Part shown: positions 2,832 to 21,698 of the stretch, in pieces
How the letters are laid out: each line of letters begins with the position of its first letter
How positions within the stretch are numbered: the first letter of the stretch is position 1
Virus record (IMG/VR): IMGVR_UViG_3300044720_000060
Coordinates: 1-21,876 of that record
Strand: one strand, 5' to 3'
Length of the DNA stretch: 21,876 nt
Origin: a virus
The notes under the pieces: generated by a model
The model's database searches: none
Told to the model about the DNA's origin: nothing
The model's input: the letters and a program-made list of their open reading frames with translations, nothing else
Position numbers and translations under genes: made by a program

Positions 2832-3037
2832 GCCTGCGACTCGACGGCCTCCACCGCGAGTGCCGCCGCCGCGGCTGGAAGCTGCGGGCCGCGATGCTCC
2901 GGTTGACCCCGGACGAGCGGGTCGTGCAGCTGCAGGTGCAGACGTCCAACCACAACCTCGGCGCCCCGCCCGGCCTGGCCATCGATGACCAGGCGCGGTT
3001 CCTGGCCCGGCACCTGTGGATCACGGAGCGCCGGTGA
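2828..3037 (+). CDS. hypothetical small phage protein
   Basis: This is a 69-residue protein starting at ATG 2828 and ending one gene before the terminase, with a GTGA overlap at its 3' end. Codon usage is strongly G/C-ending, unlike the preceding stretch. The sequence begins MSLRLDGLHRECRRRGWKLR and contains DERVVQLQVQTSNHNLG and a helical C-terminus DQARFLARHLW. It could be a small mixed alpha/beta fold. No known motif is seen and function is unassigned. Confidence 0.6.
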   Translation: MSLRLDGLHRECRRRGWKLRAAMLRLTPDERVVQLQVQTSNHNLGAPPGLAIDDQARFLARHLWITERR

Positions 3038-3672
3038 GCGACTCGGCGACCCCTCGTCGGCCCCGGCGGGAGAAGTACCCCTCGTCGCAATGCTCGGCGA
3101 TGAGCAAGCGCACAGGCCAGCGCTGCCGGCAGTGGGCGATGCACGGGCTCAGCGTGTGCTGGCGCCATGGCGGCGCGGCGTCGCAGGTGAAGGCTCGGGG
3201 CGCCCAGCGGGTGGCCCAGTGGACCGCCCGCCGCGAGCTGGTGCGCCTCGGTGCCGCCGTCGACGTGCACCCGATCGACGCCCTGCTCGAGATGGTCCGC
3301 GAGGCCGCCGGCAACGTGGCGTTCCTGCGCGGCCGGGTGTCCGAGCTCGATCAGCAGGCGGGGCTCGTGGCGCTACCCTCGGACGCCGACCAGCTCTTTC
3401 GCGCCGAGGGGATCTACGGCCCCGACCACCAGGGCGACGGCAAGCGGCACATTCTCGTGGCGATGTACGACGAGGAGCGCGACCGCCTCGCGAAGTTCGC
3501 CAAGCTCGCGCTCGACGCCGGCGTCGACGAGAAGCTCGTCCGGATCGCTGAGGCGCAGGGGCAGCAGCTCGCGGGCGTGGTCCGGGCGGCGGTCCGGGCG
3601 GCCGCGGCAGACGGCGAGCAGGCGGGGCTCGAGGCGGCGGCGGCGGAGATGCGGAGGCTGCGGGCGGAGTGA
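3034..3672 (+). CDS. terS: putative terminase small subunit, Cys/His HGG type
   Basis: This is a 212-residue protein from GTG 3034 (GTGA overlap), directly upstream of the large terminase. The N-terminus has a metal-binding-like motif, C20-x10-C31-x10-C42-x2-H45-GG, in the context MSKRTGQRCRQWAMHGLSVC...HGGAA. This motif is common in actinobacteriophage proteins encoded immediately before terL, where it is usually taken as the small terminase or DNA-recognition component. The rest is largely helical (residues 76-112 and 145-210), which would suit oligomerisation. The assignment rests on motif plus position. An HNH-associated DNA-binding protein is the main alternative. The GTG at 3669 overlapping its stop is in frame with TerL. 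Confidence 0.7.
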   Translation: MSDSATPRRPRREKYPSSQCSAMSKRTGQRCRQWAMHGLSVCWRHGGAASQVKARGAQRVAQWTARRELVRLGAAVDVHPIDALLEMVREAAGNVAFLRGRVSELDQQAGLVALPSDADQLFRAEGIYGPDHQGDGKRHILVAMYDEERDRLAKFAKLALDAGVDEKLVRIAEAQGQQLAGVVRAAVRAAAADGEQAGLEAAAAEMRRLRAE

Positions 3673-3863
3673 CATGGGGGCGGCGCCGCCGCTGTTGCGC
3701 GGCCAGGGCCACGGTGGCGCATGCCCCTCCTTGCACAATGCGCGTCACGAGTCGTGGTACCGATGCGCGTCACGAGTCGTGGTACCGTTCCCGTCGAAGC
3801 GCTGTCCCTGGCCTGGGCATGCGGCGCGGTCACCACGATCGGCGACCCCGCGACCAGGCCAGC
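3673..3863. promoter_or_regulatory. 191-base gap between terminase genes, candidate late control or packaging site
   Basis: This is the largest stretch on the plus strand, outside the endonuclease insertions, with no convincing gene. It carries a perfect 25-bp tandem duplication (3738-3787). The in-frame upstream extension of TerL through it (from GTG 3669) would encode an Arg/His-rich segment unlike terminase N-termini. Most other junctions here overlap, so a gap of this size probably holds a regulatory element: a late promoter or operator, or the packaging recognition site expected near terS/terL. No clear -10/-35 pair was identified. Confidence 0.5.
3738..3787 (+). repeat. perfect 25-bp tandem repeat, two copies, each with a CACGA-G-TCGTG palindrome
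   Basis: Unit 1 is 3738-3762 and unit 2 is 3763-3787, identical over all 25 bases. Each unit begins ATGCGCGTCACG, contains the 11-base inverted repeat CACGAGTCGTG and then GGTACC. Two copies of a dyad-symmetric site in a gene-free gap resemble a tandem protein-binding site. The 25-base period is not a multiple of three, which argues against a coding duplication. Confidence 0.9.
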
Positions 3864-5423
3864 GTGACGACAGCAGCGCTCCTCGACCGGCAGCTCCTGC
3901 GCGACCCGTGGCTCATGGCTGCGGACGAGCTCGATCCGCCCGCCTTCATGCGCGATCCGGCGCTCTGGGTCTCGGAGCGCATGGGCGAGTTCCTGTGGTC
4001 CAAGCAGCGCGACATCGCCGCCTCGGTGGCGGCGCACCGGCGCACCGCCGTGCACTCCGCGCACGACGTCGGCAAGAGCTTCCTGGCCTCGCGCATCGCC
4101 TGCTGGTGGATCGAGTCGCACCCGCCCGGCGAGGCGTTCGTGGTCTCGACCGCGCCGACCTTCACCCAGGTCAAGGCCGTCCTCTGGCGCGAGATCGGGG
4201 CGGCCCACGAGGACGCCAAGCTGCGCGGCCGGGTGAACCTCACCGAGTGGTACATCGGCCGGCGCCTGGTGGCCAAGGGCTGGAAGCCGGCGGCCGAGAC
4301 GGCGGTGCCCACCGAGCGCGGGGCCTCCTCGGGTAAGGCCGTCTTCCAGGGCATCCACGCCCGCTACGTGCTCGTGATCCTCGACGAGGCCGGCGGCGTG
4401 CCGGCCTCGATCTGGGAGGGCGCCGAGGCCCTCACGACCAACGAGCACGCGCGCATCCTGGCGATCGGGAACCCCGAGGACCCGACCACGCGCTTTGCCG
4501 AGGTCTGCGCGCCGGACTCGGGCTGGAGCGTAATCCACGTCGACGGGCACGAGAGCCCGAACTTCACGCACGAGCAGGTGCCCGAGGAGCTTCGCGACCT
4601 GCTCCTCTCGCCGCGCTGGGCCGAGGAGAAGCGGCAGGAGTGGGGTGAGGACTCGGCGCTCTATGTCAGCAAGGTGCGGGGGCGCTTCCCGACGAGCGCC
4701 TCGGACGGTGTGGTGCCGCTCGGCTGGGTGCGCCGCTGCCAGGCAGATGACCGGCCGGCGGTGATCCTCGACCCGGTCGAGCTCGGCGTCGACGTCGGCG
4801 CCGGCGTCGACCAGACGGTGATCCGCGAGCGCCGCGGCCCCGTGGCCGGGCGAGCCTGGCGCATCCGCACCGCCGACTCCGAGAAGGCGGTCGCGCTGGT
4901 GCTCCAGGCGATCGACGAGTCGGGCGCCGTGCGCGTGAAGGTCGACGTGATCGGCGTCGGCTGGGGCATCGCCGGGCGCCTCGAGGGCCTTCGCCAGGAG
5001 GGCCGCCACACGGCGGAGATCGTGTACGTCAACGTCGCCGAGGCCTCGGCCGAGCCGCACCGCTTCCCGAATCTTCGCTGCGAGCTCTGGTGGGAGATCG
5101 GGCGCCGGCTCTCACAGGACGGCGGCTGGGATCTACGGGCGCTCGACGAGGACACCGTGGCGCAGCTGATCGCGCCGAAGTGGAAGCTCCAGGGCGGCCG
5201 CACGAAGGTGGAGTCCAAGGAGGAGACCAAGAAGCGCCTGCACCGCTCCTCGCCGGATGACGCCGACGCCCTGCTCCTCGCGTTCTACGTGCCGCCGACG
5301 CGGACCGCGCAGGTGCACTCGACGCTCCCCTCCTCGACGCCGCCGGTGACCCGCAAGGGCGACCTGGTGCTCGTGGGCGAGCGCTACCGCGACGCGCCGC
5401 TGAACGGGAACGGGCACCGGTGA
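3864..5423 (+). CDS. terL: terminase large subunit (packaging ATPase/nuclease)
   Basis: From GTG 3864 the protein is 519 residues. It pumps phage DNA into the prohead and cuts it. The ATPase part has a Walker A variant SAHDVGKS (residues 65-72), Walker B VLVILDEA (169-176) and a coupling motif with GNP (202-204). The RNase H-like nuclease part shows LGVDVG (Asp 310), KVDVIG (Asp 361) and SSPDDADALLLAF (Asp 465/466/468), the expected three acidic positions. In-frame starts at GTG 3669 and ATG 3819 exist, but the extension is Arg/His-rich, covers the tandem repeat and does not look like protein. The sequence from TTAALLDRQLLRDPW onward reads as a normal terminase N-terminus. The ribosome-binding site at 3864 is weak, so the start is uncertain. 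Confidence 0.93.
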   Translation: MTTAALLDRQLLRDPWLMAADELDPPAFMRDPALWVSERMGEFLWSKQRDIAASVAAHRRTAVHSAHDVGKSFLASRIACWWIESHPPGEAFVVSTAPTFTQVKAVLWREIGAAHEDAKLRGRVNLTEWYIGRRLVAKGWKPAAETAVPTERGASSGKAVFQGIHARYVLVILDEAGGVPASIWEGAEALTTNEHARILAIGNPEDPTTRFAEVCAPDSGWSVIHVDGHESPNFTHEQVPEELRDLLLSPRWAEEKRQEWGEDSALYVSKVRGRFPTSASDGVVPLGWVRRCQADDRPAVILDPVELGVDVGAGVDQTVIRERRGPVAGRAWRIRTADSEKAVALVLQAIDESGAVRVKVDVIGVGWGIAGRLEGLRQEGRHTAEIVYVNVAEASAEPHRFPNLRCELWWEIGRRLSQDGGWDLRALDEDTVAQLIAPKWKLQGGRTKVESKEETKKRLHRSSPDDADALLLAFYVPPTRTAQVHSTLPSSTPPVTRKGDLVLVGERYRDAPLNGNGHR

Positions 5424-5590
5424 ACCCCGACCCGACCCCGAGCGCCGACGAGCGTATCGCCCAACTCGAGGCCGACGTGCAGTTCCTGGCCGGCATCCTC
5501 GCGACGCTGCGCCGTCACCCCCATCACGAGTTCACCAAGGCGGAGACGCAGGTTCTCGACGCGCTCGCCGGCGAGGACGATGGCGAGTAG
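5420..5590 (+). CDS. small coiled-coil-like protein between terminase and portal
   Basis: This is a 56-residue protein from GTG 5420, overlapping the terL stop as GTGA and ending one base before the portal start. After a Pro/Asp-rich N-terminus, residues 9-34 (ADERIAQLEADVQFLAGILA) form a probable helix with heptad-like hydrophobics. A second acidic helix follows. It is tightly packed between two essential packaging genes and is probably translationally coupled. No family was recognised. It might be a small partner of portal or terminase, but that is conjecture. Confidence 0.65.
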   Translation: MNPDPTPSADERIAQLEADVQFLAGILATLRRHPHHEFTKAETQVLDALAGEDDGE

Positions 5591-7111
5591 ATGGCGGAGA
5601 TCACCTACTCCATCCCCACCGCCACCCCCGGCGCGCAGGAGACCCAGGACTTCCTCGACGCCGCGGCCGATATGGGCGTCGAGCGGCTGGGCGGCTTCGC
5701 CCTCTACGAGCACTACTACGACGAGGGCGGCAAGGTCCGCCTGACCGACCGCCTGCGCTCGTTCCTGCAGGCCTCGGGGCTCCAGTTCGCCGAGAACTTC
5801 TCAGAGCCGATCATCGACTCGCTGGCGGAGAAGCTGCTGGTCACCGGCTTCAACGTCGACGTCGGCGACCAGGCGCAGGCGATGGCCCAGAGCGCCGACG
5901 TCGAGGCCTCGGCCACGATCTCCTCGTGGCTCGGCGACCTCTGGCAGCAGGGCCGGATGGACGCCGAGCAGGGGACGCTGCACACGCAGGGGCTCATCAA
6001 GGGCGAGGCGTTCCTGATCGTCGACTGGGACGAGGGGGCAAAGCGCGCGCGCTTCACGTTCAACCGCCCCGAGGTCTGCCGCGCCCACTACGACGCCGAG
6101 CGCCCGAACGAGCTCGAGTACGTGGCGAAGGTCTGGTGCACCAAGAGGCTCTCCCCCACCAACCCGACCGGGCGCGCGATCGAGCGGCTGAACCTCTACT
6201 TCCCCGACCGGGTCGAGAAGTGGTACCGCGTCCAGGCCGGCGGCAAGGGCGGCTGGGAGCACCACACGGACGACGGCGAGGCCGTCTGGCCGACGCCCTG
6301 GAAGGACGGCGCGGGCAAGCCGCTCGGGATCCCCGTCGTCCACTTCCGCAACAAGCCGCTCGGCAAGCCCTCGGGCCGCTCCGAGCTTCGCGGCGTCATC
6401 CCGCAGGTCGACCTACTGAACAAGCTGGTCGTCGACCTCGCCGCCATCCTTGACTCCCAGGCTTGGCGCCAGCGCTGGGCGACCGGCATCGACGGCGACG
6501 GGTCGCAGTTCAAGAACGTCCCCGGCGACGTCTGGACGAGCTCCAGCAAGGACGCCGGGTTCGGCGACTTCGCCGCCGACGACGCCGCAGGGGTCCTGGC
6601 GGCGATCGACCAGACGCTCAACCGGATCGCCCGTCGCAGCCGCACGCCGCTGCACCTTCTCACCGGCGGCGACATGCCCTCCGGGGAGGCGCTGAAGTCC
6701 GCCGAGTCCGGGCAGACGGCCAAGGCCAAGAAGATCCACGTCGCCTGGGGCAACGGCTGGGAGGACGCGATGCTCTGCGCGCTCCGCCTGACCGAGGCCT
6801 TCGGACGCCTGCCGGTCGAGATCGACCTGGCGCGCATCGTCATCTCGACCGAGTGGGACGACCCGGTCAGCCGCAACGACAAAGAGGAGGCCGAGACCGC
6901 GCTCCTCTACCGGGAGCTCGGCGTCTCCCAGGACACGCTGCTGACCCGCATGGGCTTTGACCCCGAGCACGAGGCCGAGCAGCGAAAGCTCGAGGGCCAG
7001 GGCGCCGACGAGACGCTGGCGCGGCTGCTCGACCATGGCGCCGGCATGGGCGGCACGGCGGTGCCTCCTCCGCCTCCTTCCGTGCCGGCGCTCGCGGGGG
7101 GCGCGGCGTGA
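5591..7111 (+). CDS. portal protein (SPP1 gp6-like)
   Basis: This is a 506-residue protein from ATG 5591, adjacent to the previous stop. Portal proteins form the dodecameric DNA channel at one vertex of the capsid. Recognisable stretches are the N-terminal helices with FAENFSEPIIDSLAEKLL, the long stem-like region RGVIPQVDLLNKLVVDLAAI, and LHLLTGGDMPSGEALKSAE near residue 365, which is characteristic of SPP1-type portals in actinobacteriophages. Length is normal for the family and the position after TerL is standard. The C-terminus is a low-complexity Pro/Gly/Ala tail. The stop overlaps the next start as GTGA. Confidence 0.93.
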   Translation: MAEITYSIPTATPGAQETQDFLDAAADMGVERLGGFALYEHYYDEGGKVRLTDRLRSFLQASGLQFAENFSEPIIDSLAEKLLVTGFNVDVGDQAQAMAQSADVEASATISSWLGDLWQQGRMDAEQGTLHTQGLIKGEAFLIVDWDEGAKRARFTFNRPEVCRAHYDAERPNELEYVAKVWCTKRLSPTNPTGRAIERLNLYFPDRVEKWYRVQAGGKGGWEHHTDDGEAVWPTPWKDGAGKPLGIPVVHFRNKPLGKPSGRSELRGVIPQVDLLNKLVVDLAAILDSQAWRQRWATGIDGDGSQFKNVPGDVWTSSSKDAGFGDFAADDAAGVLAAIDQTLNRIARRSRTPLHLLTGGDMPSGEALKSAESGQTAKAKKIHVAWGNGWEDAMLCALRLTEAFGRLPVEIDLARIVISTEWDDPVSRNDKEEAETALLYRELGVSQDTLLTRMGFDPEHEAEQRKLEGQGADETLARLLDHGAGMGGTAVPPPPPSVPALAGGAA

Positions 7112-10148: not shown

Positions 10149-11099
10149 ATGCCCGCAACACCACAGCATTGGGCGGCGCTCGTCGAGCCTGTCCTCAATC
10201 GGCAGTTCTTCTACGTCGGCTTCGGCGGCGAGGGCAGGCGTCAGTCGCTGCTTGACCGCCTGTTCAACATCCAGACCTCGCAGTACGCCGAGGAGAAGAC
10301 GATGAGCCTCGGCGGCTTCTCGACGCAGGGCTGGAACTTCGAGGACTCGGGCCGCGTGCAGTACGACGAGCGCGCCAAGGGATACGAGAAGACCTTCGCC
10401 CATCACGAGTTCGCCAAGGGCTTCATCGTCACCCGCAGGCTCATGGACGACAACCGCCTCTCGACCGTCTTCCGGGACGCGCGCGAGCTCGGGGACTCGG
10501 CCTTCCGGATGCGCGAGAAGGCCGGCGCCAACGTCTTCGCCCAGGGCTTCTCCAACGCGACGACGGCGACGCTCGACCAGTACGGCACCGACGCGGTCGG
10601 GCCGGATGGGGTGGCGCTCCTCTCCGACGCCCACCCGGCGCCACCCGGCGCCGGCGGCTCCACCCAGTCGAACGAGGGCACGCTGGCCCTGACGGCCGCA
10701 AACCTCGGGACCGTCCGCGCGGCGATGATGAGCTTCAAGGACTACCAGGGCGACCTGCTGAACGTGATGCCGGACACCCTGCTCGTGCCGCCGGAGCTCG
10801 AGGACACGGCGCTCACGATCGTGCGCTCCCAGCAGGACCCGACGAGCGCCAACAACGCCATCAACCCGCAGGCCGGCCGCTTCCAGGTGATCGTCTGGCA
10901 CTACCTCGCGGACTCGAACGCCTGGTTCCTGATCGACTCGTCGCTCATGCGCCAGCACCTTCACTGGTTCGACCGGATCCCGCTCGAGTTCGGCCGCGAG
11001 GAGGACTTCGACACCTTCCAGGCCAAGTTCCGCGCCTACCAGCGCTTCAGCCTGGGCTGGTCAGATTGGAGATTTATTTATGGCGAGAATCCGTCCTAG
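10149..11099 (+). CDS. major capsid protein, HK97-fold, Mu gpT-like
   Basis: This is a 316-residue protein from ATG 10149 with a very strong ribosome-binding site. It is the shell subunit of the icosahedral head. Signs are an N-terminal arm with the long YAEEKTMSLGGFSTQGW segment, FAKGFIVTRRLMDD, helix DSAFRMREKAGANVFAQGF, and the LLSDAHPAPPGAGGSTQSN loop. The later NVMPDTLLVPPELEDTAL and WFLIDSSLMRQHLHWF also match Mu gpT-like capsid proteins of siphoviruses. No delta domain is present, consistent with a separate scaffold gene. The last 12 codons (from about 11062) switch to A/T-ending codons, including AGA, TTT, ATT and TAT, exactly where an antisense endonuclease gene overlaps. Confidence 0.93.
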   Translation: MPATPQHWAALVEPVLNRQFFYVGFGGEGRRQSLLDRLFNIQTSQYAEEKTMSLGGFSTQGWNFEDSGRVQYDERAKGYEKTFAHHEFAKGFIVTRRLMDDNRLSTVFRDARELGDSAFRMREKAGANVFAQGFSNATTATLDQYGTDAVGPDGVALLSDAHPAPPGAGGSTQSNEGTLALTAANLGTVRAAMMSFKDYQGDLLNVMPDTLLVPPELEDTALTIVRSQQDPTSANNAINPQAGRFQVIVWHYLADSNAWFLIDSSLMRQHLHWFDRIPLEFGREEDFDTFQAKFRAYQRFSLGWSDWRFIYGENPS

Positions 11100-11670
11100 T
11101 TATAGCTAGGACCTCGGACCGAGTCTTCAGACCATGACAGTCACCGCAGAGCGCCTGTCCATTGGCCACATCGTTCGTGCCGCCGCGGTGGCACGGCACG
11201 ATGTGGTCGTACTGGAGGCGCTCGGTCGCCCCGCACTGTTCGCACCGGTATCCGGCGCGCTCCAGGATCAGCCGCTTCATGCGATCACTGAACTCCTGGC
11301 CGCGTCGTCGGTTGCGGACCGGGTACCGCTCGGTCCGCAGGCTCACGAAGTAGCAGGCCTGCGAGCAGTAGAGGCGCCCTATGTGACCAAGCACGCACGT
11401 CTTGCCGCAGAGGGCGCAGACCTGCATCGTCCACCCGATCTTGCCGTTCCCACGGCAGGCCATGGAGCAGAAGCGGCGCGCCTCCCAGTAGGCCAGCGAC
11501 CAGTCCCTGTCCTTCTCGAACTCCCGTCCGCAGCGCTCGCACGGCTTGGTCGGCTGATCCTTCAGCTTCGAGCAGCGGCGACCGCAGAAGGTGTTCCGCC
11601 AGTCCTTCGGGACGAAGGTGACACCGCACCGGGGGCATACCTTCGTGCGGTCAAGTCGCGGTCGTCCCAT
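11074..11670 (-). CDS. HNH homing endonuclease with three zinc ribbons
   Basis: This is a 198-residue protein on the minus strand from ATG at 11670. Residues 12-33, 44-72 and 85-106 each have a C-x2-C...C-x3-C zinc ribbon, so there are three in series, probably DNA-binding. Residues 143-182 are a classic HNH domain: CEQCG, then DHIVPCHRGG (D155-H156), N170, and ALCGDCH (C175, C178, H179). The gene overlaps the 3' end of the major capsid gene by 26 bases, and its last eight residues are read from capsid-gene antisense. It is free-standing, not inside an intron or intein, since the capsid gene is intact. Related roles are gene homing and marker exclusion. Codon bias is weaker than in neighbours. 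Confidence 0.9.
   Translation of the reverse strand: MGRPRLDRTKVCPRCGVTFVPKDWRNTFCGRRCSKLKDQPTKPCERCGREFEKDRDWSLAYWEARRFCSMACRGNGKIGWTMQVCALCGKTCVLGHIGRLYCSQACYFVSLRTERYPVRNRRRGQEFSDRMKRLILERAGYRCEQCGATERLQYDHIVPCHRGGTNDVANGQALCGDCHGLKTRSEVLAITRTDSRHK
11093..11112. other. hairpin at the major capsid stop codon and insertion boundary
   Basis: GTCCTAG (11093-11099) and CTAGGAC (11106-11112) pair perfectly over seven bases around the six-base loop TTATAG. No U-tract follows on either strand, so a Rho-independent terminator is not supported. It marks the left edge of the endonuclease insertion and could be part of its target or a fold at the mRNA end. Confidence 0.4.
11095..11100 (+). repeat. 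6-bp direct repeat flanking the first endonuclease (second copy 11706-11711)
   Basis: CCTAGT occurs at the capsid stop codon and again just before the ribosome-binding site of the gene at 11733. Joining the two copies removes 611 bp and leaves capsid TAG, then GGGGAGGTGA, then ATG with normal spacing. The repeat is short, so chance is possible, but its placement is exact. Confidence 0.45.
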
Positions 11671-13951: not shown

Positions 13952-14383
13952 GTGGCCCCGCCCACCGACACGACCGACCAGGTCCGGCTGCTCCTCGGCG
14001 GGCCGGCGACGACGCTGGTCACCGACGACCAGCTCGACTTCTTCCTCGCCGAGGCGGACAACGGCATCTACCTGGCGGCCGCCTCGGCGGCGGAGTTCCT
14101 GGCCGCCTACTACGCCTCCGCGTACTCGTTCGAGACCGACGGCCAGAAGTTCGACCGCAAGACGCTGTTCACGAACTACATGGCTCTCGCCGCGTCATTC
14201 CGCGCCCGCGCTGCTGGGCTCACCGTGGGTCCGGGCGGCGCCTTGATTGGCACGGTCTCCACGATCGACAGCACCCGAGTGGACGGGTTCTCCCAAGATG
14301 TTGCCAATCAGGAGGTCGGGGCAACCGGAACCAACCCGCGGCAGCGCTTCTACACCGTGGATGGAGTCGATTCTCTTCCATGA
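13952..14383 (+). CDS. putative head-tail adaptor (connector) protein
   Basis: This is a 143-residue protein from GTG 13952. The N-terminus, TDQVRLLLGGPATTLVTDDQ followed by LDFFLAEADNGIYLAAASAA, has the helical pattern of the small head-tail connector proteins (gp6/gp15-like) that bind below the portal. Residues 70-95 continue the helical bundle (FDRKTLFTNYMALAASFRAR). The last ~30 codons (from about 14284) contain many A/T-ending codons (CAA, GAT, GTT, AAT, GCA, GGA, TCT, CTT, CCA), unlike the first part. This shift lies against the following endonuclease gene, whose ATG overlaps its stop as ATGA. Confidence 0.7.
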   Translation: MAPPTDTTDQVRLLLGGPATTLVTDDQLDFFLAEADNGIYLAAASAAEFLAAYYASAYSFETDGQKFDRKTLFTNYMALAASFRARAAGLTVGPGGALIGTVSTIDSTRVDGFSQDVANQEVGATGTNPRQRFYTVDGVDSLP

Positions 14384-14880
14384 AGCGCCCCCGTCCCCTC
14401 ATGGAGCGCTTGTGGGAGAAGGTCGACCGTTCTGGCGGCCTTGATGCCTGTTGGCCGTGGACGGCCGGCAAGATGCTCGGCTACGGGCTGATCGGGCTTG
14501 GTGGTCGCGCCGGCGGCAACGACCTCGCCCATCGCGTTATCGCAAAGGCGGCGCTCGGCCCGCCGCCGCCGCGGCATGAGGCGCGCCACCTCTGCGGCAA
14601 CCGCGCCTGCTGCAATCCGCTTCATCTTGCCTGGGGCACCCGCAGCCAGAACGAGGCGGACAAGCTTGCGCATGGACGTTCGAATCGTGGTGAGCGGCAC
14701 GGCCTCGCAAAGCTGACGGAGGCCGACGTTCACGAGTTGCGACGGCTCGCCTGGTCCGGCGTCAGACACAGCGAGATCGCCCTGCGCTTCGGTGTCTCCA
14801 CGGCGTGCATCCGAGACGTCCTTGTCGGTCGCCGTTGGGCTTGGCTGACCACCGACCGAGAGGGGGTGATGCCGTCGTGA
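14380..14880 (+). CDS. HNH homing endonuclease (HNH_3 type) with C-terminal HTH
   Basis: This is a 166-residue protein from ATG 14380, overlapping the adaptor stop as ATGA. It starts with the family-typical CWPWTAGKMLGYG (residues 24-36). AHRVIAKAALG (50-60) follows, then the HNH core HLCGNRACCNPLHL (70-83; His 70, Asn 79, His 82) and WGTRSQNEADKLAHGR. Residues 107-152 form a helix-turn-helix (KLTEADVHELRRL then HSEIALRFGVSTACIRDVL), a common DNA-reading tail in phage homing endonucleases. Of the four endonucleases here it is the only one in the same direction as the operon. The next gene starts in its stop as GTGA. Collapse of the flanking TGAAGC repeats would fuse adaptor stop and glycosyltransferase start as ATGA. 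Confidence 0.92.
   Translation: MKRPRPLMERLWEKVDRSGGLDACWPWTAGKMLGYGLIGLGGRAGGNDLAHRVIAKAALGPPPPRHEARHLCGNRACCNPLHLAWGTRSQNEADKLAHGRSNRGERHGLAKLTEADVHELRRLAWSGVRHSEIALRFGVSTACIRDVLVGRRWAWLTTDREGVMPS
14381..14386 (+). repeat. 6-bp direct repeat flanking the second endonuclease (second copy 14878-14883)
   Basis: TGAAGC occurs at the endonuclease start and again at the glycosyltransferase start. Removing one copy plus the 497-bp intervening DNA would give an ATG start for the glycosyltransferase, overlapping the adaptor stop as ATGA, the usual junction of this genome. Short repeats can be chance, but the reconstruction is exact. Confidence 0.45.
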
Positions 14881-16067
14881 AGCTCTTGTGGCACAGCAAT
14901 GCCGCCTGGGCTTCCACCTTAGCCGGGTACGGGAACCAAACGGCGCTCGTCACCCAGCGCCTCGCCCGCGCCGGCCACGACGTCGCCATCAGCGCCTTCT
15001 GGGGCCTCCAGGGCGCCGTCCTCGACTGGCAGGGGATCCGCGTCTACCCCGGCGGCTTTGACCCCTACGGCAGTCAGGCGCTGCCGCTTCACGCCCGCGA
15101 CTGGTTCGGCGGCGACCCCGGGGGCGGCGTGGTCATCACGCTGGTGGACGCCTGGGTGATGGACCCCGCGAAGCTGCGCGACCTGCACGTCGGCATGTGG
15201 GCGCCGGTCGACCACGAGACCTGCCCGCCGCGGGTGGCCGTGGTGCTGCGCGACTCGGGCTGCCTGCCGATCGCGATGAGCCTGCACGGCGAGCAGGCGA
15301 TGCGCGGCGTCGGCCTCGACCCGGTCTACGCGCCGCACGGAATCGACACCCAGGCCTTCGCCCCGCGCGACCGTGAGGAGTGCAGGCGCCTGCTCGACTG
15401 GCCGCGCGACGCCTTCGTCGTGGGCATGGTCGCCGCGAACAAGGGCTACCCGCCGCGCAAGGGCTTCCCCGAGGCGATCGCCGCCTTCGCTCGCTTCCAG
15501 AAAAGGCACGACCAGGCGGTGCTCTACCTGCACACAGAGCCCCACGGCGTGGTCCAGGGCGTCAACCTGCCGTCCATCCTCGGCGCCAACGGCGTGCCGC
15601 AGGAGTCCGTGCGCTTCGCCGATCCCTACCGCTACCAGCTCGGGTTCTCGCAGGAGCACATGGTGACCGCCTACTCCGGGATGGACGTGCTCCTGAACCC
15701 GAGCTACGGCGAGGGCTTCGGGATCCCCATGGCGGAGGCACAGGCCTGCGGCACCCCCGTGATCTCCACCAACGCCACCTCGATGCCGGAGGTGGGCGAC
15801 GTCGGCTGGATCGTGGGCGGCCAGCGGATGTGGACCGAGCAGGGCGCCTATCAGCTGGTGCCCGACATCGACCAACTCGTGGCCGCGCTCGGGCAGGCCC
15901 ACCAGATGGCGCCCCGGATGCGCGAGCGGGCGCGCCAGCACGCGCTCACCTACGACGCCGACCGCGTCTTCGCCGAGCACTGGATGCCGGTGCTCGCAGT
16001 GCTCGAGGCGCGCATGGAGGGGAAGCCGGTCGCGCTCGCGCCGCCGGTGGAGTTGGTGCCGGCGTGA
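14877..16067 (+). CDS. glycosyltransferase, GT4-like (GT-B fold)
   Basis: This is a 396-residue protein from GTG 14877, overlapping the endonuclease stop as GTGA. The GT-B signature is clear: a Gly-rich N-terminal domain beginning KLLWHSNAAWASTLAGYGNQ, the domain link YAPHGIDTQAFAP (151-163), and VVGMVAANKGYPPRKG (181-196). The C-terminal sugar-nucleotide site YGEGFGIPMAEAQACGTPVI has the E-x7-E pair (Glu 279, Glu 287). Such enzymes move a sugar from an NDP donor to an acceptor with retention. This is the first gene of a five-enzyme coupled cassette. The acceptor is not visible from sequence. The first ~23 codons contain several A/T-ending codons (TTG, AAT, TTA, CAA), next to the endonuclease. 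Confidence 0.92.
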   Translation: MKLLWHSNAAWASTLAGYGNQTALVTQRLARAGHDVAISAFWGLQGAVLDWQGIRVYPGGFDPYGSQALPLHARDWFGGDPGGGVVITLVDAWVMDPAKLRDLHVGMWAPVDHETCPPRVAVVLRDSGCLPIAMSLHGEQAMRGVGLDPVYAPHGIDTQAFAPRDREECRRLLDWPRDAFVVGMVAANKGYPPRKGFPEAIAAFARFQKRHDQAVLYLHTEPHGVVQGVNLPSILGANGVPQESVRFADPYRYQLGFSQEHMVTAYSGMDVLLNPSYGEGFGIPMAEAQACGTPVISTNATSMPEVGDVGWIVGGQRMWTEQGAYQLVPDIDQLVAALGQAHQMAPRMRERARQHALTYDADRVFAEHWMPVLAVLEARMEGKPVALAPPVELVPA

Positions 16068-16231
16068 TGGCCTGGCTCTGGATGGCTCGCCGCTACGGCC
16101 TTCGCCCGACGCTGCGCTACTGGCGCGCCTACCGCGAGCGGTTGGTCATCGACTACGCCGCGATCTTCACCGCCGACGAGCTGGCGCTTTTGGGCGACCA
16201 CTTCACGATGCCGTGGGAGCGGTCAGCGTGA
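16067..16231 (+). CDS. small protein inside the glycosyltransferase cassette
   Basis: This is a 54-residue protein from ATG 16067 (TGATG overlap); GTG 16064 is an alternative. It is aromatic and basic at first (MAWLWMARRYGLRPTLRYWR) and then acidic-hydrophobic (AAIFTADELALLGDHFTMPW). G/C-ending codons and overlaps on both sides support coding. It could be an accessory subunit of the neighbouring enzymes. No family was recognised. Confidence 0.55.
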   Translation: MAWLWMARRYGLRPTLRYWRAYRERLVIDYAAIFTADELALLGDHFTMPWERSA

Positions 16232-16803
16232 CCGCCGACGTCACCGTCATCACGGCCTCTCTTCCCACCCGCGGCCGGATGCTCGCCGAGTGCGTGGCGA
16301 GCGTCGCCGCCCAGACCGTGGCGCCGGCCGCGCACCTGATCGGCGTGGACTACGCGCGGCGGGGCACCTCGGCCATCCGCAATGACCTGTGGCGGATGGC
16401 CAAGACGGAATGGATCGCCGTCCTCGATGACGACGACATCCTCCTCCCGCACCACCTGGAGTACCTGGTGGGAGCCGCCGGCAACACCGCGACCATTGCC
16501 TACAGCTTCTGCGCCGTGGATGGGCGGCCGGGTTGGAACCCGAGCCGTCCATTCGACGCCGCGGCATTGCGGGAGGGCCCGAACTACATCCCCGCGACAA
16601 TCCTGATCCGCCGCCCGATGCTCTACGCGCTCGACGGCTGGCGGGACTCGGAGGACTGCCTCCACGGCTGGGAGGACTACGACCTACTCCTCCGGGCGCT
16701 CGACGCTCACGCCGAGTTCGCGTGCGTACCGACCGTGACCTGGGTCTACCGCTTTGCGGCGGGGCGCAACAAGACCGAGGTCGGGGAGTTGGCGGCGTGC
16801 TGA
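16228..16803 (+). CDS. glycosyltransferase family 2-like (GT-A fold)
   Basis: This is a 191-residue protein from GTG 16228 (GTGA overlap). It begins with VTVITASLPTRGRMLAECVA, the usual first strand and helix of GT2 enzymes. GTSAIRNDLWRMAKTEWIAV is followed by LDDDD (66-70), the metal-binding DXD motif. GWEDYDLLLRA (147-157) corresponds to the conserved ED acceptor/catalytic motif. At 191 residues it is a minimal GT-A domain with no membrane helix, so it is probably soluble. It acts within the cassette with the GT4-like enzyme and the two GT2-like enzymes. Confidence 0.87.
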   Translation: MTADVTVITASLPTRGRMLAECVASVAAQTVAPAAHLIGVDYARRGTSAIRNDLWRMAKTEWIAVLDDDDILLPHHLEYLVGAAGNTATIAYSFCAVDGRPGWNPSRPFDAAALREGPNYIPATILIRRPMLYALDGWRDSEDCLHGWEDYDLLLRALDAHAEFACVPTVTWVYRFAAGRNKTEVGELAAC

Positions 16804-17417
16804 CCCACGTCGTCCTTCCCACCGTCACGGGCCGCGAGCGCCACCTCGCCCGGACGCTTGCCGCCTACCGCCAGCGCACCCCCGTCCCGGTCGAGATCAC
16901 CGTCGTTCAGGATCACCCGACCTGCGGCATCGCCTGGCGCGAGGGCGCGGCGCGCGTGGACGGCGCCGCCTACGTCCACCTCGGGGCCGACGACCTGGTG
17001 CCCGAGGATGGGTGGTGGGAGCCGCTCGCGGAGGCGGTCGACGCCGGCTACCTGCCGTGCCCGGTCGTGCTCGAGCCCGATGGGCGGGTCCAGTCGGCCG
17101 GCGGCTACGACTGGGGCCTCCACAGGGACGTGGGCGAGGACTGGGCCACGATCGGCTGGACGACGGTCCCGTTCATGTCGGCCGAGCAGTTCGCCGCGAT
17201 CGGCATGATCGAGACGCACTACTGCACGGATACCTGGGTCTCGGCGGTCGGCGCCCTGCATGGCTGGCAGACGGTGCTGCGGCCGGCCTCGCGCTTCGTG
17301 CACCACAACGCCGAGCCCGGCCGCGGCGCCGGCATGGACGTTCACGCTCGCAACCGCCACGACCGCGCCGAGTTCGCCCGTCTGCTGGAAGAGGAGCGGG
17401 CCCGATGCGCTCGCTGA
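16797..17417 (+). CDS. glycosyltransferase family 2-like protein, divergent
   Basis: This is a 206-residue protein from GTG 16797, overlapping the previous stop by seven bases. It begins THVVLPTVTGRERHLARTLA, a GT-A first strand and helix. VEITVVQDHPTCGIAWREG lies where GT2 enzymes bind UDP, and HLGADDLVPEDGWWE (61-75) supplies a DXD-equivalent, GADD. HYCTDTWVSAVGALHG could be the acceptor-loop region. The usual C-terminal ED motif is less clear than in its neighbours, so activity is uncertain. It may modify or extend the sugar added by the other enzymes. Confidence 0.75.
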   Translation: MLTHVVLPTVTGRERHLARTLAAYRQRTPVPVEITVVQDHPTCGIAWREGAARVDGAAYVHLGADDLVPEDGWWEPLAEAVDAGYLPCPVVLEPDGRVQSAGGYDWGLHRDVGEDWATIGWTTVPFMSAEQFAAIGMIETHYCTDTWVSAVGALHGWQTVLRPASRFVHHNAEPGRGAGMDVHARNRHDRAEFARLLEEERARCAR

Positions 17418-18055
17418 GCATCTGCACGCCGTGGCTCAACCTGCCGTTCCTCATCCCCGATTACGAGCGGGCGGTGCGGGGCGCCGACCAGGTGATCGTG
17501 ATCGACAACGGCTCCTCGGAACCGAACGCCGCCGCGATCGCGGAGATGGTCGCGCGCCTCGGCGGGGTGCTCATCCGGCGCGAGGACAACGGCTGGTTCA
17601 GCGGGCCCGCAAACGAGGGGCTCGCGGTCGCGACCGGCGACGTGGTGGTCGTGCTCAACAACGACATCCGCTGCGCCGACCCGGACTGGCTCGAGCGGGT
17701 GCGCCGCGACGTCGAGCCGGGCGGGCTCTACGGGCCGTCCTCCGGGACGCGGATGGTGGACGGCGTCCACATCCCCTACATCGAGGGCTGGTGCGTGGCA
17801 GCCGCGCGCACGACCTGGCAGCGCCTGTCGGGCTTTGACGCGGCCACGTTCGAGCGCCCCTACTGGGAGGACGTCGACCTCTCCTTCCGGGCGATGATCC
17901 TGGGCATCGGGCTCTACCGCAGCGCCTGGCAGGTCGAGCACCTCTCCAACACCACGAGCGCCGTCACGCCGGGGGCCTATGACGCCTCGGAGGCAAACCG
18001 CCTGAGCTTCGAGGCGAAGGTCCGGCAGCAGCTGGGGCGGAGGGCGGCTGCGTGA
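17405..18055 (+). CDS. glycosyltransferase family 2, rhamnosyltransferase-like
   Basis: This is a 216-residue protein from ATG 17405, overlapping the previous gene by 13 bases. GT2 hallmarks are all visible: QVIVIDNGSSEPN (29-41), DNGWFSGPANEGLAVATGD (61-79), VVVLNNDI (81-88; the DXD-equivalent NND), and the ED motif PYWEDVDLSFRA (152-163). The NGWFSGPANEG segment is typical of the rhamnosyltransferase-like GT2 subgroup. This is the most canonical GT2 enzyme in the cassette. It is coupled to the epimerase gene downstream by a GTGA overlap. Confidence 0.9.
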   Translation: MRSLSICTPWLNLPFLIPDYERAVRGADQVIVIDNGSSEPNAAAIAEMVARLGGVLIRREDNGWFSGPANEGLAVATGDVVVVLNNDIRCADPDWLERVRRDVEPGGLYGPSSGTRMVDGVHIPYIEGWCVAAARTTWQRLSGFDAATFERPYWEDVDLSFRAMILGIGLYRSAWQVEHLSNTTSAVTPGAYDASEANRLSFEAKVRQQLGRRAAA

Positions 18056-18993
18056 AGATTCTCGTCACGGGCGCAGCGGGGTTCATCGGGACCCACCTCT
18101 GCCGCGAGCTACGCGGGGCGGGCCATGAGGTGATCGCGCGCGACCTCGTGACGCACCCGAAGGACGACCTGCGCCGCGGCGGGATCGCCGCTGGTTACGT
18201 CCAATTCCACCGCCCAGAGGCCGTGGTGCACTTGGCTGCCCAGGTCGGCCGCCAGTTCGGCGAGGACGACGTTGCTCGATCCATCGAGTCGAACGCGACC
18301 ATGACGGCGCACGTCGCCCGGGCCTGCACCGCGTGGGGTGCCCGCCTCGCCTACTGCTCCACCTCCGAGGTCTACGGCGACCAGGGCGAGGCAGGGTGCG
18401 TCGAGGGCGGCCCAGAGGTGCTGCCGCACGGGATCTACGGGCTCTCCAAGCGCTGGGGAGAGGAGGCCGCCCGCCTCTACGCCCCCGACGGCCTCCAGAT
18501 CGTGCGCCTCTCGATGCCCTATGGCCCCGGGCTTCCCGCCGGCCGGGGGCGGGCCGCGATCGTCAACTTCCTCTGGCAGGCCCACCACCGGATGCCGGTG
18601 ACCGTGCACCGCGGCGGCAAGCGCTCGTGGACCTACGTCGCCGACACCGTCCGCGGCTTCCGCCTGGTCATCGAGCGCGGCGAGCAGGCGCGCACTGCCG
18701 CCGAGTCCGAGGCCGGCGTGGGCGTCTACAACATCGGCCGCGACGACGCCGAGGTGACGATGCTCGACGTCGCGCGCTTGTCTTGCGACATCGCCGGCGC
18801 CCCCTACGACCTCATCACCGAGGTTGATCCGCCCGAGCGACAGACGGTGGTCAAGCGCCTCTCCACCGCAAAGCTCCGCGCCCTCGGCTGGGCGCCGGAG
18901 GTCGAGCTCGAGGAGGGCATGCGATTGACCTACGAGGTCGTCCGTCACTTCGATGAGGAGGGAAGCCTTGTCCAGTCCCCCGCAGCCGCCTAG
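18052..18993 (+). CDS. NAD-dependent epimerase/dehydratase (extended SDR)
   Basis: This is a 313-residue protein from GTG 18052. It shows the Rossmann motif GAAGFIG (7-13), VVHLAAQVG (58-66), YCSTSEVYG (101-109) and the catalytic YGLSK (Tyr 129, Lys 133). PYGPG and a C-terminal substrate-binding half follow. This is the UDP-glucose 4-epimerase / dTDP-glucose dehydratase superfamily. The enzyme probably makes or alters the NDP-sugar used by the four upstream glycosyltransferases; the exact sugar cannot be read. The coding end overlaps the following Pro-rich gene. It is close to normal length and shows no broken motif. Confidence 0.92.
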   Translation: MKILVTGAAGFIGTHLCRELRGAGHEVIARDLVTHPKDDLRRGGIAAGYVQFHRPEAVVHLAAQVGRQFGEDDVARSIESNATMTAHVARACTAWGARLAYCSTSEVYGDQGEAGCVEGGPEVLPHGIYGLSKRWGEEAARLYAPDGLQIVRLSMPYGPGLPAGRGRAAIVNFLWQAHHRMPVTVHRGGKRSWTYVADTVRGFRLVIERGEQARTAAESEAGVGVYNIGRDDAEVTMLDVARLSCDIAGAPYDLITEVDPPERQTVVKRLSTAKLRALGWAPEVELEEGMRLTYEVVRHFDEEGSLVQSPAAA

Positions 18994-19489: not shown

Positions 19490-19815
19490 TGGCCATGACC
19501 GTCTCCGTCACCCGCACGAGCCGCATCCCGGCGGTGACCGCGGCGGTGCTCGCGAAGGCGGCGCTCGTCGTGACCAAGGCCGCCATGGACATCGAGGCTC
19601 ACGCCAAGGACCGCGCGCCGGTGGACACCGGGTTCCTCAAGAACTCGATCGCGGCCAAGAAGGTCGGGGCGTTGTCCTGGGAGGTCGAGGTCCACGCCTC
19701 GTACGGCGTGTTTCAAGAAATGGGCACGAGATTCCAGCCCGCGCGCCCGTATTTTATTCCGGCAATCGAGCTGGTTCGGCCGTCGTATCTCGCTGCGATG
19801 AGAACGGTGGTGTGA
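19489..19815 (+). CDS. HK97 gp10-like neck / tail-completion protein
   Basis: This is a 108-residue protein from ATG 19489 (TGATG overlap). Residues 34-55 (DIEAHAKDRAPVDTGFLKNS) are the diagnostic gp10 helix and loop, and YGVFQEMGTRFQPARPYFIP near 72-91 is the family C-terminal motif. It forms part of the head-tail interface ring. The last ~33 codons (from about 19713) change to A/T-ending codons (TTT, CAA, GAA, AGA, TAT, ATT, GCA), although the protein sequence stays normal. The antisense endonuclease gene overlaps the last 62 bases. Confidence 0.88.
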   Translation: MAMTVSVTRTSRIPAVTAAVLAKAALVVTKAAMDIEAHAKDRAPVDTGFLKNSIAAKKVGALSWEVEVHASYGVFQEMGTRFQPARPYFIPAIELVRPSYLAAMRTVV

Positions 19816-20620
19816 GGCATGGCGCAAGCCGATGTTCCAGACGATGTTTGCGCGCGGAGGCGAACGCCCAATGGGTCAGCTCGATGAGAGGCATGCCGTG
19901 CTCGCGGTAGCGCTCCAGTTTCCACCGTTTCCGCTCGGTGTAGCGGCGGTTGTGGGTGACTCCCCAGATCTCGATGTACCAGCCGTTCGCGAGGAAATCT
20001 GCGCGGAAGCGTCGATCGAACGGAAGCCGAGGATCGTAGACATGCGCGACTCCGTGCTCCGAGAGCCAGTCATCGACCCACTGCTCGTAGGTCGAGCGCA
20101 CGACATGCCCGTCATTGCAGGTTCGCTGCTCGCGCCAGCCAGGGTGACGGCGAGGGATGCCGTGCTCGTCCATGAGCTTCTTGATCGGCCCTGCCGAGAC
20201 GCCGTGGCGCCTGCCGATGTTGATGATCGACTCTCCATGGACGAGGTACGCCTCGCGAAGTTCTGCCTCGGTTGGAAGCAGGGGCACGTGCCCCCCTCGC
20301 CGTGTCATCCAGACCGTGGAGGACGGGATTCCGAACTTCTTCAGCCAGTAGGCGACGGCCGTCAAGTCGACGCCGTAGAGCGCACCGATTGCCGCGAGCG
20401 AGCGGTGCTCCACATGGACGAGCCGCTCCAAGTCCTCGGCCCGCATCGGCTCAAGGCCCCTCGCGGCCAGTCCCTTGCCTTTGGGCCGCGGTGGGATTCC
20501 GTACTTCCGCATCCAGCGCAGCACGTGTGTCTTGCTGACGCCGAATCGCTTCCCGATCTGGCGAGTCGTCAACCCGTCGTCGATGTACAGGCGGGCAAGC
20601 TCGTCGCGGTCGGGCGTCAC
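19754..20620 (-). CDS. homing endonuclease, triple HTH plus PD-(D/E)XK/Vsr-like nuclease domain
   Basis: This is a 288-residue protein on the minus strand with a GTG start at 20620. Three repeats of about 56 residues, each a helix-turn-helix, lie at 7-44, 63-100 and 119-156. Each ends in a KYGIP/KFGIP/EHGIP segment. They are probably DNA-reading units. Residues 173-250 form a nuclease-like domain: VVRSTYEQWVDDWLSEHG (Ser 176, Glu 179), FRADFLANGWYIEIWG (Asp 208, Glu 217). The E-x-K lysine is replaced, as in some Vsr-like homing enzymes. The last ~22 residues are read from gp10-gene antisense and probably are not part of the fold. The gene sits between neck and tail-terminator genes and is free-standing. 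Confidence 0.82.
   Translation of the reverse strand: MTPDRDELARLYIDDGLTTRQIGKRFGVSKTHVLRWMRKYGIPPRPKGKGLAARGLEPMRAEDLERLVHVEHRSLAAIGALYGVDLTAVAYWLKKFGIPSSTVWMTRRGGHVPLLPTEAELREAYLVHGESIINIGRRHGVSAGPIKKLMDEHGIPRRHPGWREQRTCNDGHVVRSTYEQWVDDWLSEHGVAHVYDPRLPFDRRFRADFLANGWYIEIWGVTHNRRYTERKRWKLERYREHGMPLIELTHWAFASARKHRLEHRLAPCLTPPFSSQRDTTAEPARLPE
19828..19834 (+). repeat. 7-bp direct repeat flanking the third endonuclease (second copy 20646-20652)
   Basis: GCCGATG occurs shortly after the neck-gene stop and again at the tail-terminator ATG. Joining them deletes 818 bp and puts the tail-terminator ATG 16 bases after the neck stop. The first copy is inside the present endonuclease frame, so residues after about 265 would come from host-gene DNA. 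Chance cannot be excluded. Confidence 0.4.
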
Positions 20621-20649: not shown

Positions 20650-21060
20650 ATGAACGTCATGGACGTCGCCATCTACAACGCGCTGGCCGGCTCGACGGCG
20701 CTCACCACCGCGCTCGGCGGCACTGCCATCTTCCAGTGGCTCGCCCCCGAGAACCGCAACCCGCCCTACGTCGTCTACAACAAGCAGGCCGGCACCCCGA
20801 TCCACACCTTCGGCGGCGTGGCGATCGAGAACGACCTCTACACCGTGCGCGGCGTGACCATCGGCCCCTCGGCCGTCGCCGGCGGCACGATCGCGAAGCT
20901 CATCAACGACGCCCTCGCCGACCGGGCGCTCACCATCACCGGCTACACCCACCTCTACCTGCGCCGCGTCTCGGACGTGGACTACCCGGAGGTCGTGGCG
21001 GGGGTGCGTTTCTACCATCGCGGTGCGATGTACCGCGCCATGGCCGATCCCGCCGGCTAA
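20650..21060 (+). CDS. tail terminator-like protein (DUF3168 type)
   Basis: This is a 136-residue protein from ATG 20650. The pattern IYNALAGSTALTTALGGTAI, PPYVVYNKQAG, LYTVRGVTIGPSAVAGGTIA and a final beta segment matches the DUF3168 / gpU-like tail terminator proteins that cap the tail at the head-proximal end. Length is normal for the family. It lies between the neck protein and the tail tube, the standard place. The upstream ribosome-binding site is weak, possibly because the endonuclease insertion altered the leader. The 3' end overlaps the next endonuclease gene by four bases, tail to tail. Confidence 0.78.
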   Translation: MNVMDVAIYNALAGSTALTTALGGTAIFQWLAPENRNPPYVVYNKQAGTPIHTFGGVAIENDLYTVRGVTIGPSAVAGGTIAKLINDALADRALTITGYTHLYLRRVSDVDYPEVVAGVRFYHRGAMYRAMADPAG

Positions 21061-21698
21061 TGCTTCTTCGGCCCCCAACGCGCGAGCGCTCCCTTCCTCC
21101 CGGCCTCGGCCATCCGAGCGCGCGTCTCGGGGCTGTAGGTCCAGGTCTTCCGGTCGTGCTGGGCCAGGTGCTCGGCGGTGCCCGCGTAGACCTCCAGGTT
21201 CTCGGGCCGGTTGTCGTCCTTGACGCCGTTGCGGTGGTGTACGTGTTCGGTGGGAAGCAGGAGGCGTCCGAGCTTCTCGGACATGACGAGACGGTGCTCG
21301 GGGGCATAGCCGCTGCGCTGGGCCATGGGGTGGCCAGGGCACCACACCATCACGTAGCCGCCCGAGGTCAGGTATCGGCCACCGCGCCAGCGCGGACAGT
21401 CGGGACCGATGGCGCGCCCTCGGGGGCTGTGTCCGCGCAGGTAGGGCACCGGGTGGCCGCGGAAGTGGCGCCGCTTGCGGCGCGTCGTCGTGACCAGCGG
21501 GGTCGGCTGACCGCAACCGCATTCGCACATTCCGCTCGGGATCTCGTCCCTTGTCGGCTGGTATGCCCCCCGGTGGGGCCGGCCCTCGCTTGCCGCGAGT
21601 CGCACGTGATGGCCGGGAAGAAACCGCGCCGGTTTGCGGCGCCGCGGGTTGTCAGGGATCGGCTCTCCGCAGCCGCATTCACACAACGGTCTGTCCAT
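21057..21698 (-). CDS. HNH homing endonuclease with two Cys-rich N-terminal motifs
   Basis: This is a 213-residue protein on the minus strand from ATG 21698. Two similar short motifs, CECGCGEPIP (6-15) and CECGCGQPTP (58-67), each followed by a basic R-F-x-x-GH segment (FLPGHH, FRGH), are probably metal-binding DNA contacts. Residues 108-177 are an HNH domain: RYLTSGGYVMVW, EHRLVMSEKLGR (His 135), HVHHRNGVKDDNRPENLEV (His 154/155, Asn 167) and AEHLAQH. The C-terminal YSPETRARMAEAGRKG is a NUMOD-like DNA-binding tail. Its stop overlaps the tail-terminator stop by four bases. No clean flanking repeat was found for this one. Confidence 0.9.
   Translation of the reverse strand: MDRPLCECGCGEPIPDNPRRRKPARFLPGHHVRLAASEGRPHRGAYQPTRDEIPSGMCECGCGQPTPLVTTTRRKRRHFRGHPVPYLRGHSPRGRAIGPDCPRWRGGRYLTSGGYVMVWCPGHPMAQRSGYAPEHRLVMSEKLGRLLLPTEHVHHRNGVKDDNRPENLEVYAGTAEHLAQHDRKTWTYSPETRARMAEAGRKGALARWGPKKH

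Follow-up and report, generated by a model that had tools for sequence, protein, structure and literature searches.

A perfect 25-bp tandem duplication in the non-coding spacer upstream of a phage terminase large subunit gene

Direct repeats are a feature of the pac site of phage SPP1, which is located at its small terminase gene (PMC4737164). They are arranged in three sets, over promoters and the beginning of that gene. However, the DNA-binding domain of the small terminase of SF6 shows little specificity for the pac repeat boxes (PMC4737164), so repeats near terminase genes provide weak evidence for a packaging site. Glutamicibacter phage Montesquieu, which is related to the phage described here by its zinc-ribbon protein, is predicted by PhageTerm to package by a headful (pac) mechanism (PMC9331655), and phage LuckyBarnes has no defined genome termini (PMC6588365). 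A different point of comparison is given by promoters of M. tuberculosis, in which an extended −10 motif, centred 7–12 bp upstream of the transcript start, has been associated with greater promoter strength and a −35 consensus was not seen; the motif was reported in 511 copies, with 90 starts associated with it (PMC3898074). Tandem operators of phages and simple tandem duplications derived from slippage are further systems with which a short repeat of this type can be compared.

The locus described here is found in a virus record of IMG/VR that is 21,876 bases long, and the window that was analysed is this entire record. Between a gene for a zinc-ribbon protein and the gene for the terminase large subunit (terL) it contains a perfect tandem pair of a 25-bp unit. 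The features of the locus are collected in Table 1.

Table 1. Features of the zinc-ribbon/terL region and the basis on which each was assigned.
Feature	Position	Strand	Basis
Zinc-ribbon HGG-type protein, phrog_3678 (function unknown); position alone makes it a candidate packaging partner or small terminase	3034..3672	+	Family searches, model, neighbourhood
Non-coding spacer with repeat, 191 bp	3673..3863	.	Flat GC by codon position
Copy 1 of the 25-bp unit ATGCGCGTCACGAGTCGTGGTACCG	3738..3762	.	Tandem detection, edge check
Dyad CACGA-G-TCGTG, copy 1	3746..3756	.	Dyad scan
Copy 2 of the 25-bp unit, 25/25 identical to copy 1	3763..3787	.	Tandem detection, edge check
Dyad CACGA-G-TCGTG, copy 2	3771..3781	.	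Dyad scan
TGGTACCGT, candidate promoter element, the sole TGNTANNNT (extended −10) match of the record	3780..3788	+	Motif scan, both strands
Terminase large subunit (terL), GTG start best supported by homology	3864..5423	+	Family and homologue alignments
56-aa ORF overlapping the terL stop (GTGA), no Pfam match	5420..5590	+	ORF list, Pfam
Portal protein (SPP1 Gp6-like), following gene in the presumed terL operon	5591..7111	+	Family searches

The array at 3738–3787 consists of ATGCGCGTCACGAGTCGTGGTACCG present twice, back to back, and it is the top-scoring tandem of the window. The match at a lag of 25 ends exactly at both edges, with no partial extension, and each unit holds one CACGA-G-TCGTG dyad and one GGTACC. 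A preliminary description of this DNA had reported two identical 25-base units containing both of these motifs, and our analysis confirms it in each respect, with sharp edges. The search for the unit elsewhere in the genome that it had proposed showed that the record holds the tandem pair only, with no further copies when up to three mismatches were allowed in a 22-base core. In IMG/VR, the exact 17-mer core occurs at merely two places, which are unrelated and were taken as chance; the match in locus L037 lies inside a coding frame by eye. Pairs of CACGANTCGTG were found at 13 IMG/VR loci, where their spacings and sequence contexts differ from those of the repeat. The 11-bp dyad is common by itself, as there are 34 palindromes of the 5+1+5 type in the window, four of them within the spacer (two being the repeat itself), and GGTACC occurs four times in the window. 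The repeat is flanked by short inverted matches, with arms at 3711–3726 and 3815–3830, which by a hand estimate appear to be of a size expected by chance at this composition.

The repeat lies in non-coding DNA, as indicated by the GC content at codon positions and by the TerL homologues, which align from ~3864, near residue 1 of the product that starts there. GC at codon positions 1/2/3 is flat across 3669–3863 (0.71/0.74/0.71), compared with 0.79/0.51/0.93 in the upstream gene and 0.72/0.50/0.96 in terL; the spacer has a GC content of 72%. The spacer contains no Rfam match, no tRNA was found, and the scan gave no terminator or standard sigma-70 promoter close to the repeat. It is not the largest gene-free gap, as had been thought, since the gap at 2525–2827 (~303 bp) exceeds it. 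That gap is also non-coding, with flat GC by codon position, and its region has a perfect 11-bp inverted repeat (AAAGAGACACG/CGTGTCTCTTT, 2523–2533 and 2651–2661). Two possible origins of the spacer were considered and rejected. For a decayed gene, there was no six-frame match under E = 0.07 among the comparison loci searched. For insertion of a mobile element, no terminal inverted repeats were seen by eye, and the GTGAC present at both ends of the spacer (3669–3673 and 3864–3868, an arrangement shared with locus L057) may be either a duplication made at insertion or simply the product of GTGA gene overlaps, from which such junctions are expected.

Perfect tandems of this kind are rarer in simulated sequence than in real phage DNA. 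Among 60 Markov simulations of the window, none had a perfect tandem with a period of at least 20, and the maximum period was 11. By comparison, the 1.69 Mb of viral loci that were fetched contained nine distinct perfect tandems with periods of 20–150. In such related viral DNA, perfect tandems of ≥20 bp hence number ~5 per Mb, giving ~0.12 expected per window and a probability of ~0.11 for one or more. Eight of the nine are inside open frames and seven have a period that is a multiple of three, so that non-coding perfect tandems will be rarer than the overall rate implies; the one non-coding case came from a locus fetched by the dyad search, and little non-coding DNA was sampled. Separately, a 22-bp tandem array with CACGAATCGTG dyads was seen outside open frames in locus L045 (2817–2874), and loci L041, L047, and L050 have in common a conserved pair of the CACGAATCGTG dyad, 24 bp apart.

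Neither the repeat nor its spacer was found in the relatives examined. In the loci that separate the zinc-ribbon gene from terL by a gap, the gap was in every case free of perfect tandems of ≥12 bp. Likewise, in 80 TerL relatives (~46–58% identity) the 500 bp before terL held no comparable tandem, only two weak short ones with 12- and 18-bp units. The spacing of the zinc-ribbon gene and terL across relatives ranges from overlap to several kb, with hardly any spacer in most TerL relatives that have the zinc-ribbon gene, and in the nearest ones (L161 and L162) the two genes overlap by ~40 bp. The spacer and the repeat therefore both appear to be particular to the lineage of this phage, as far as the collections reach, although very near relatives may escape such searches. 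In two loci with a gap of ~400 bp between these genes, most of it is occupied by a minus-strand ORF with hydrophobic stretches (L056, 671–1225; L067, 7521–8021).

The explanation that we favour, with a probability of about 0.42, is a recent slippage duplication within a lineage-specific spacer, with the effect that an operator-like dyad next to a weak candidate terL promoter would now be present twice. A single tandem duplication, most simply produced by replication slippage, would have copied a 25-bp piece of non-coding DNA that carries the 11-bp dyad and ends at an extended −10-like element. The array is like simple slippage-derived duplications in its identity over the whole period, its sharp edges, its one extra copy, and its absence from the relatives examined; it differs from those in the comparison loci, which are mostly inside open frames. 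A recent event fits better than two old sites that are alike only at contact positions, because the 25/25 identity spans bases outside the dyad and the edges are undecayed. The likeliest role for the copied piece would be transcriptional, as part of a weak promoter for the terL–portal operon, with the dyad as a possible operator of which the duplication made a second copy. As TACCGT would already follow the unit in a single-copy ancestor, the duplication would add a dyad without loss of the −10 match.

The candidate promoter element, TGGTACCGT, is formed by the end of the second copy and the next base, and it would place the start of a transcript at ~3793–3798. Like the extended −10 promoters of M. 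tuberculosis, it fits the TGNTANNNT pattern without a recognisable −35, and the sigma-70 scan gave no standard promoter for it. Unlike them it is one match only, the corresponding TGGTACCGA of the first copy departs from the pattern, and the mycobacterial motif may not be that of the host. The chance of one TGNTANNNT on the plus strand of a 191-bp stretch of the same composition is ~0.02, a value to be read with the Markov expectation of ~1.9 per strand in the record and with the match having been noticed after the fact. TACCGT shares only three of six bases with TATAAT. Furthermore, TGNTANNNT is not in excess among relatives with a gap, where it was found within 220 bp upstream of terL in 1 of 58 compared with 1.5 expected. 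Many relatives need no promoter at this position, because their zinc-ribbon gene and terL overlap or abut, and this counts against the explanation that we favour.

The dyads stand near a −10 motif that is itself a candidate, with centres at ~−44 and ~−19 from the predicted start. This arrangement, with the centres of two CACGA-G-TCGTG dyads 25 bp apart, is like the tandem operators of phages. The differences are that no cognate repressor or activator was identified and that the record has no more copies; the two dyads also do not face the same side of the helix, as 25 bp is ~2.4 helical turns. The window proteins searched, which cover part of the ORFs of a record that may be a fragment, did not include a regulator, and no shared dyad was seen in the five gaps that were compared. 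The two-site operator suggested in the preliminary description is a possible reading, given the non-coding spacer, its position directly upstream of terL, and the sole extended −10 match, at which the second copy ends.

It is also quite possible, and only somewhat less credible than the duplication with a transcriptional role, that the same slippage event was neutral. The repeat would then be functionless, in a spacer that remained after an insertion or the decay of a gene, and the dyad and GGTACC would be chance palindromes in DNA of 72% GC. Much of what has been described is compatible with this: the repeat is found in this record only, palindromes of the size of the dyad are frequent in the window, and perfect tandems do turn up in related viral DNA at the rate given above. 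The junction of the zinc-ribbon gene and terL accepts insertions, as its spacing across relatives indicates, and the spacer RNA folds no more stably than shuffled sequences do (z = −0.5). Against it, perfect tandems in non-coding DNA are rarer than those in coding frames (1/9, at the locus from the dyad search), and the terL-side copy ends in the only extended −10 match of the record. Our best reading places a promoter or operator role slightly ahead of no function, with a packaging site well behind.

Recognition of the repeat by the packaging machinery is unlikely; in this reading, the protein from the upstream gene would bind it as a pac site, or as one element of a cos site, to initiate packaging. 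A pac site is plausible somewhere in this genome, given the headful prediction for Montesquieu and the lack of defined termini in LuckyBarnes, and the position of the upstream gene makes its product a plausible candidate for the packaging partner. Among zinc-protein loci in which terL could be placed (n = 87), the estimated spacing is ≤20 bp, overlaps included, in 19, and it is ~−47 to +43 bp in ~20 of 30 TerL-similar loci with the zinc-ribbon gene. Loci where this gene abuts or overlaps terL include L081, L091, L101, L110, L123, L128, L161, and L162. As in SPP1 and SF6, there are direct repeats beside terminase genes and an SPP1-type portal, and a headful relative is known. Here, in contrast, there is one perfect, non-conserved pair, which is located downstream of the gene for the candidate partner. 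The proposal of a packaging element made from the sequence at the outset is unsupported, because the repeat is not kept in relatives, because most TerL relatives with the upstream gene have hardly any gap to hold it, and because its 17-mer core is found at only two unrelated IMG/VR places. The genomes of TripleJ and Kukla begin at terL codon 1. Circular genomes are often opened at terL, so these starts are not taken as genome ends.

Beyond its position, nothing found in the upstream product itself marks it as a packaging partner. The protein matches phrog_3678, and its match to the HGGxSTG domain is weak, under the curated cut-off. A structure predicted with 19 homologues as input shows long helices (mean pLDDT 82.9), and from conserved Cys/His and short strands in the model we read the N-terminus as zinc-ribbon-like. 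A PDB search with this model gave no significant match and no TerS fold; the sole significant hit among viral models was to a protein of a Microbacterium phage that is itself uncharacterised. Family searches and the model revealed no HTH, and there is no TerS annotation or curated name. The label terS that this gene was first given finds no backing in the family searches made with its product. In LuckyBarnes it is a separate gene, with an excisionase/MerR-like HTH, that is noted as the small terminase. It is very doubtful that the zinc-ribbon HGG protein is a small terminase without an HTH for which, in this phage, the duplicated 25-bp dyad unit serves as a pac site between the terminase genes.

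A start of TerL at the GTG at 3669, which would make the repeat part of the coding sequence and which had been named as a finding that would overturn a regulatory or packaging role, is highly improbable. The frame is open from 3669 and this GTG overlaps the upstream stop (GTGA), a frequent type of coupling in such operons. However, an open frame of 65 codons is unsurprising at 72% GC, the flat GC of this stretch lacks the strong codon-position bias of both flanking genes, and homologues begin near residue 1 of the 3864 product. The 63-residue in-frame spacer peptide had no convincing match among the comparison loci searched (best E 0.08). Doubling of one copy by an assembly error can be given equally little credit, as the record is an assembled contig but the 50-bp array is well within normal read length and has clean edges.

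As it stands, the 25-bp repeat matters little, being one non-conserved duplication in a spacer. Of more use is what emerged about the gene first labelled terS: it belongs to a zinc-ribbon family (function unknown) that many phages and prophages, mostly from actinobacteria, have kept immediately upstream of terL. For phages in which no small terminase with an HTH has been named, this family offers a candidate, open to test, for the partner that initiates packaging.

Other genes in the record were also observed. The structural module has three HNH endonuclease genes identified by Pfam, at 11074–11670 (−), 14380–14880 (+), and 21057–21698 (−), and an ORF with an HTH domain at 19754–20620 (−) may be a related endonuclease. 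In the structural half, the region 14805–18990 contains three glycosyltransferase-type ORFs and an NAD-dependent epimerase, for which a role in glycan modification of the host or the virion is possible.
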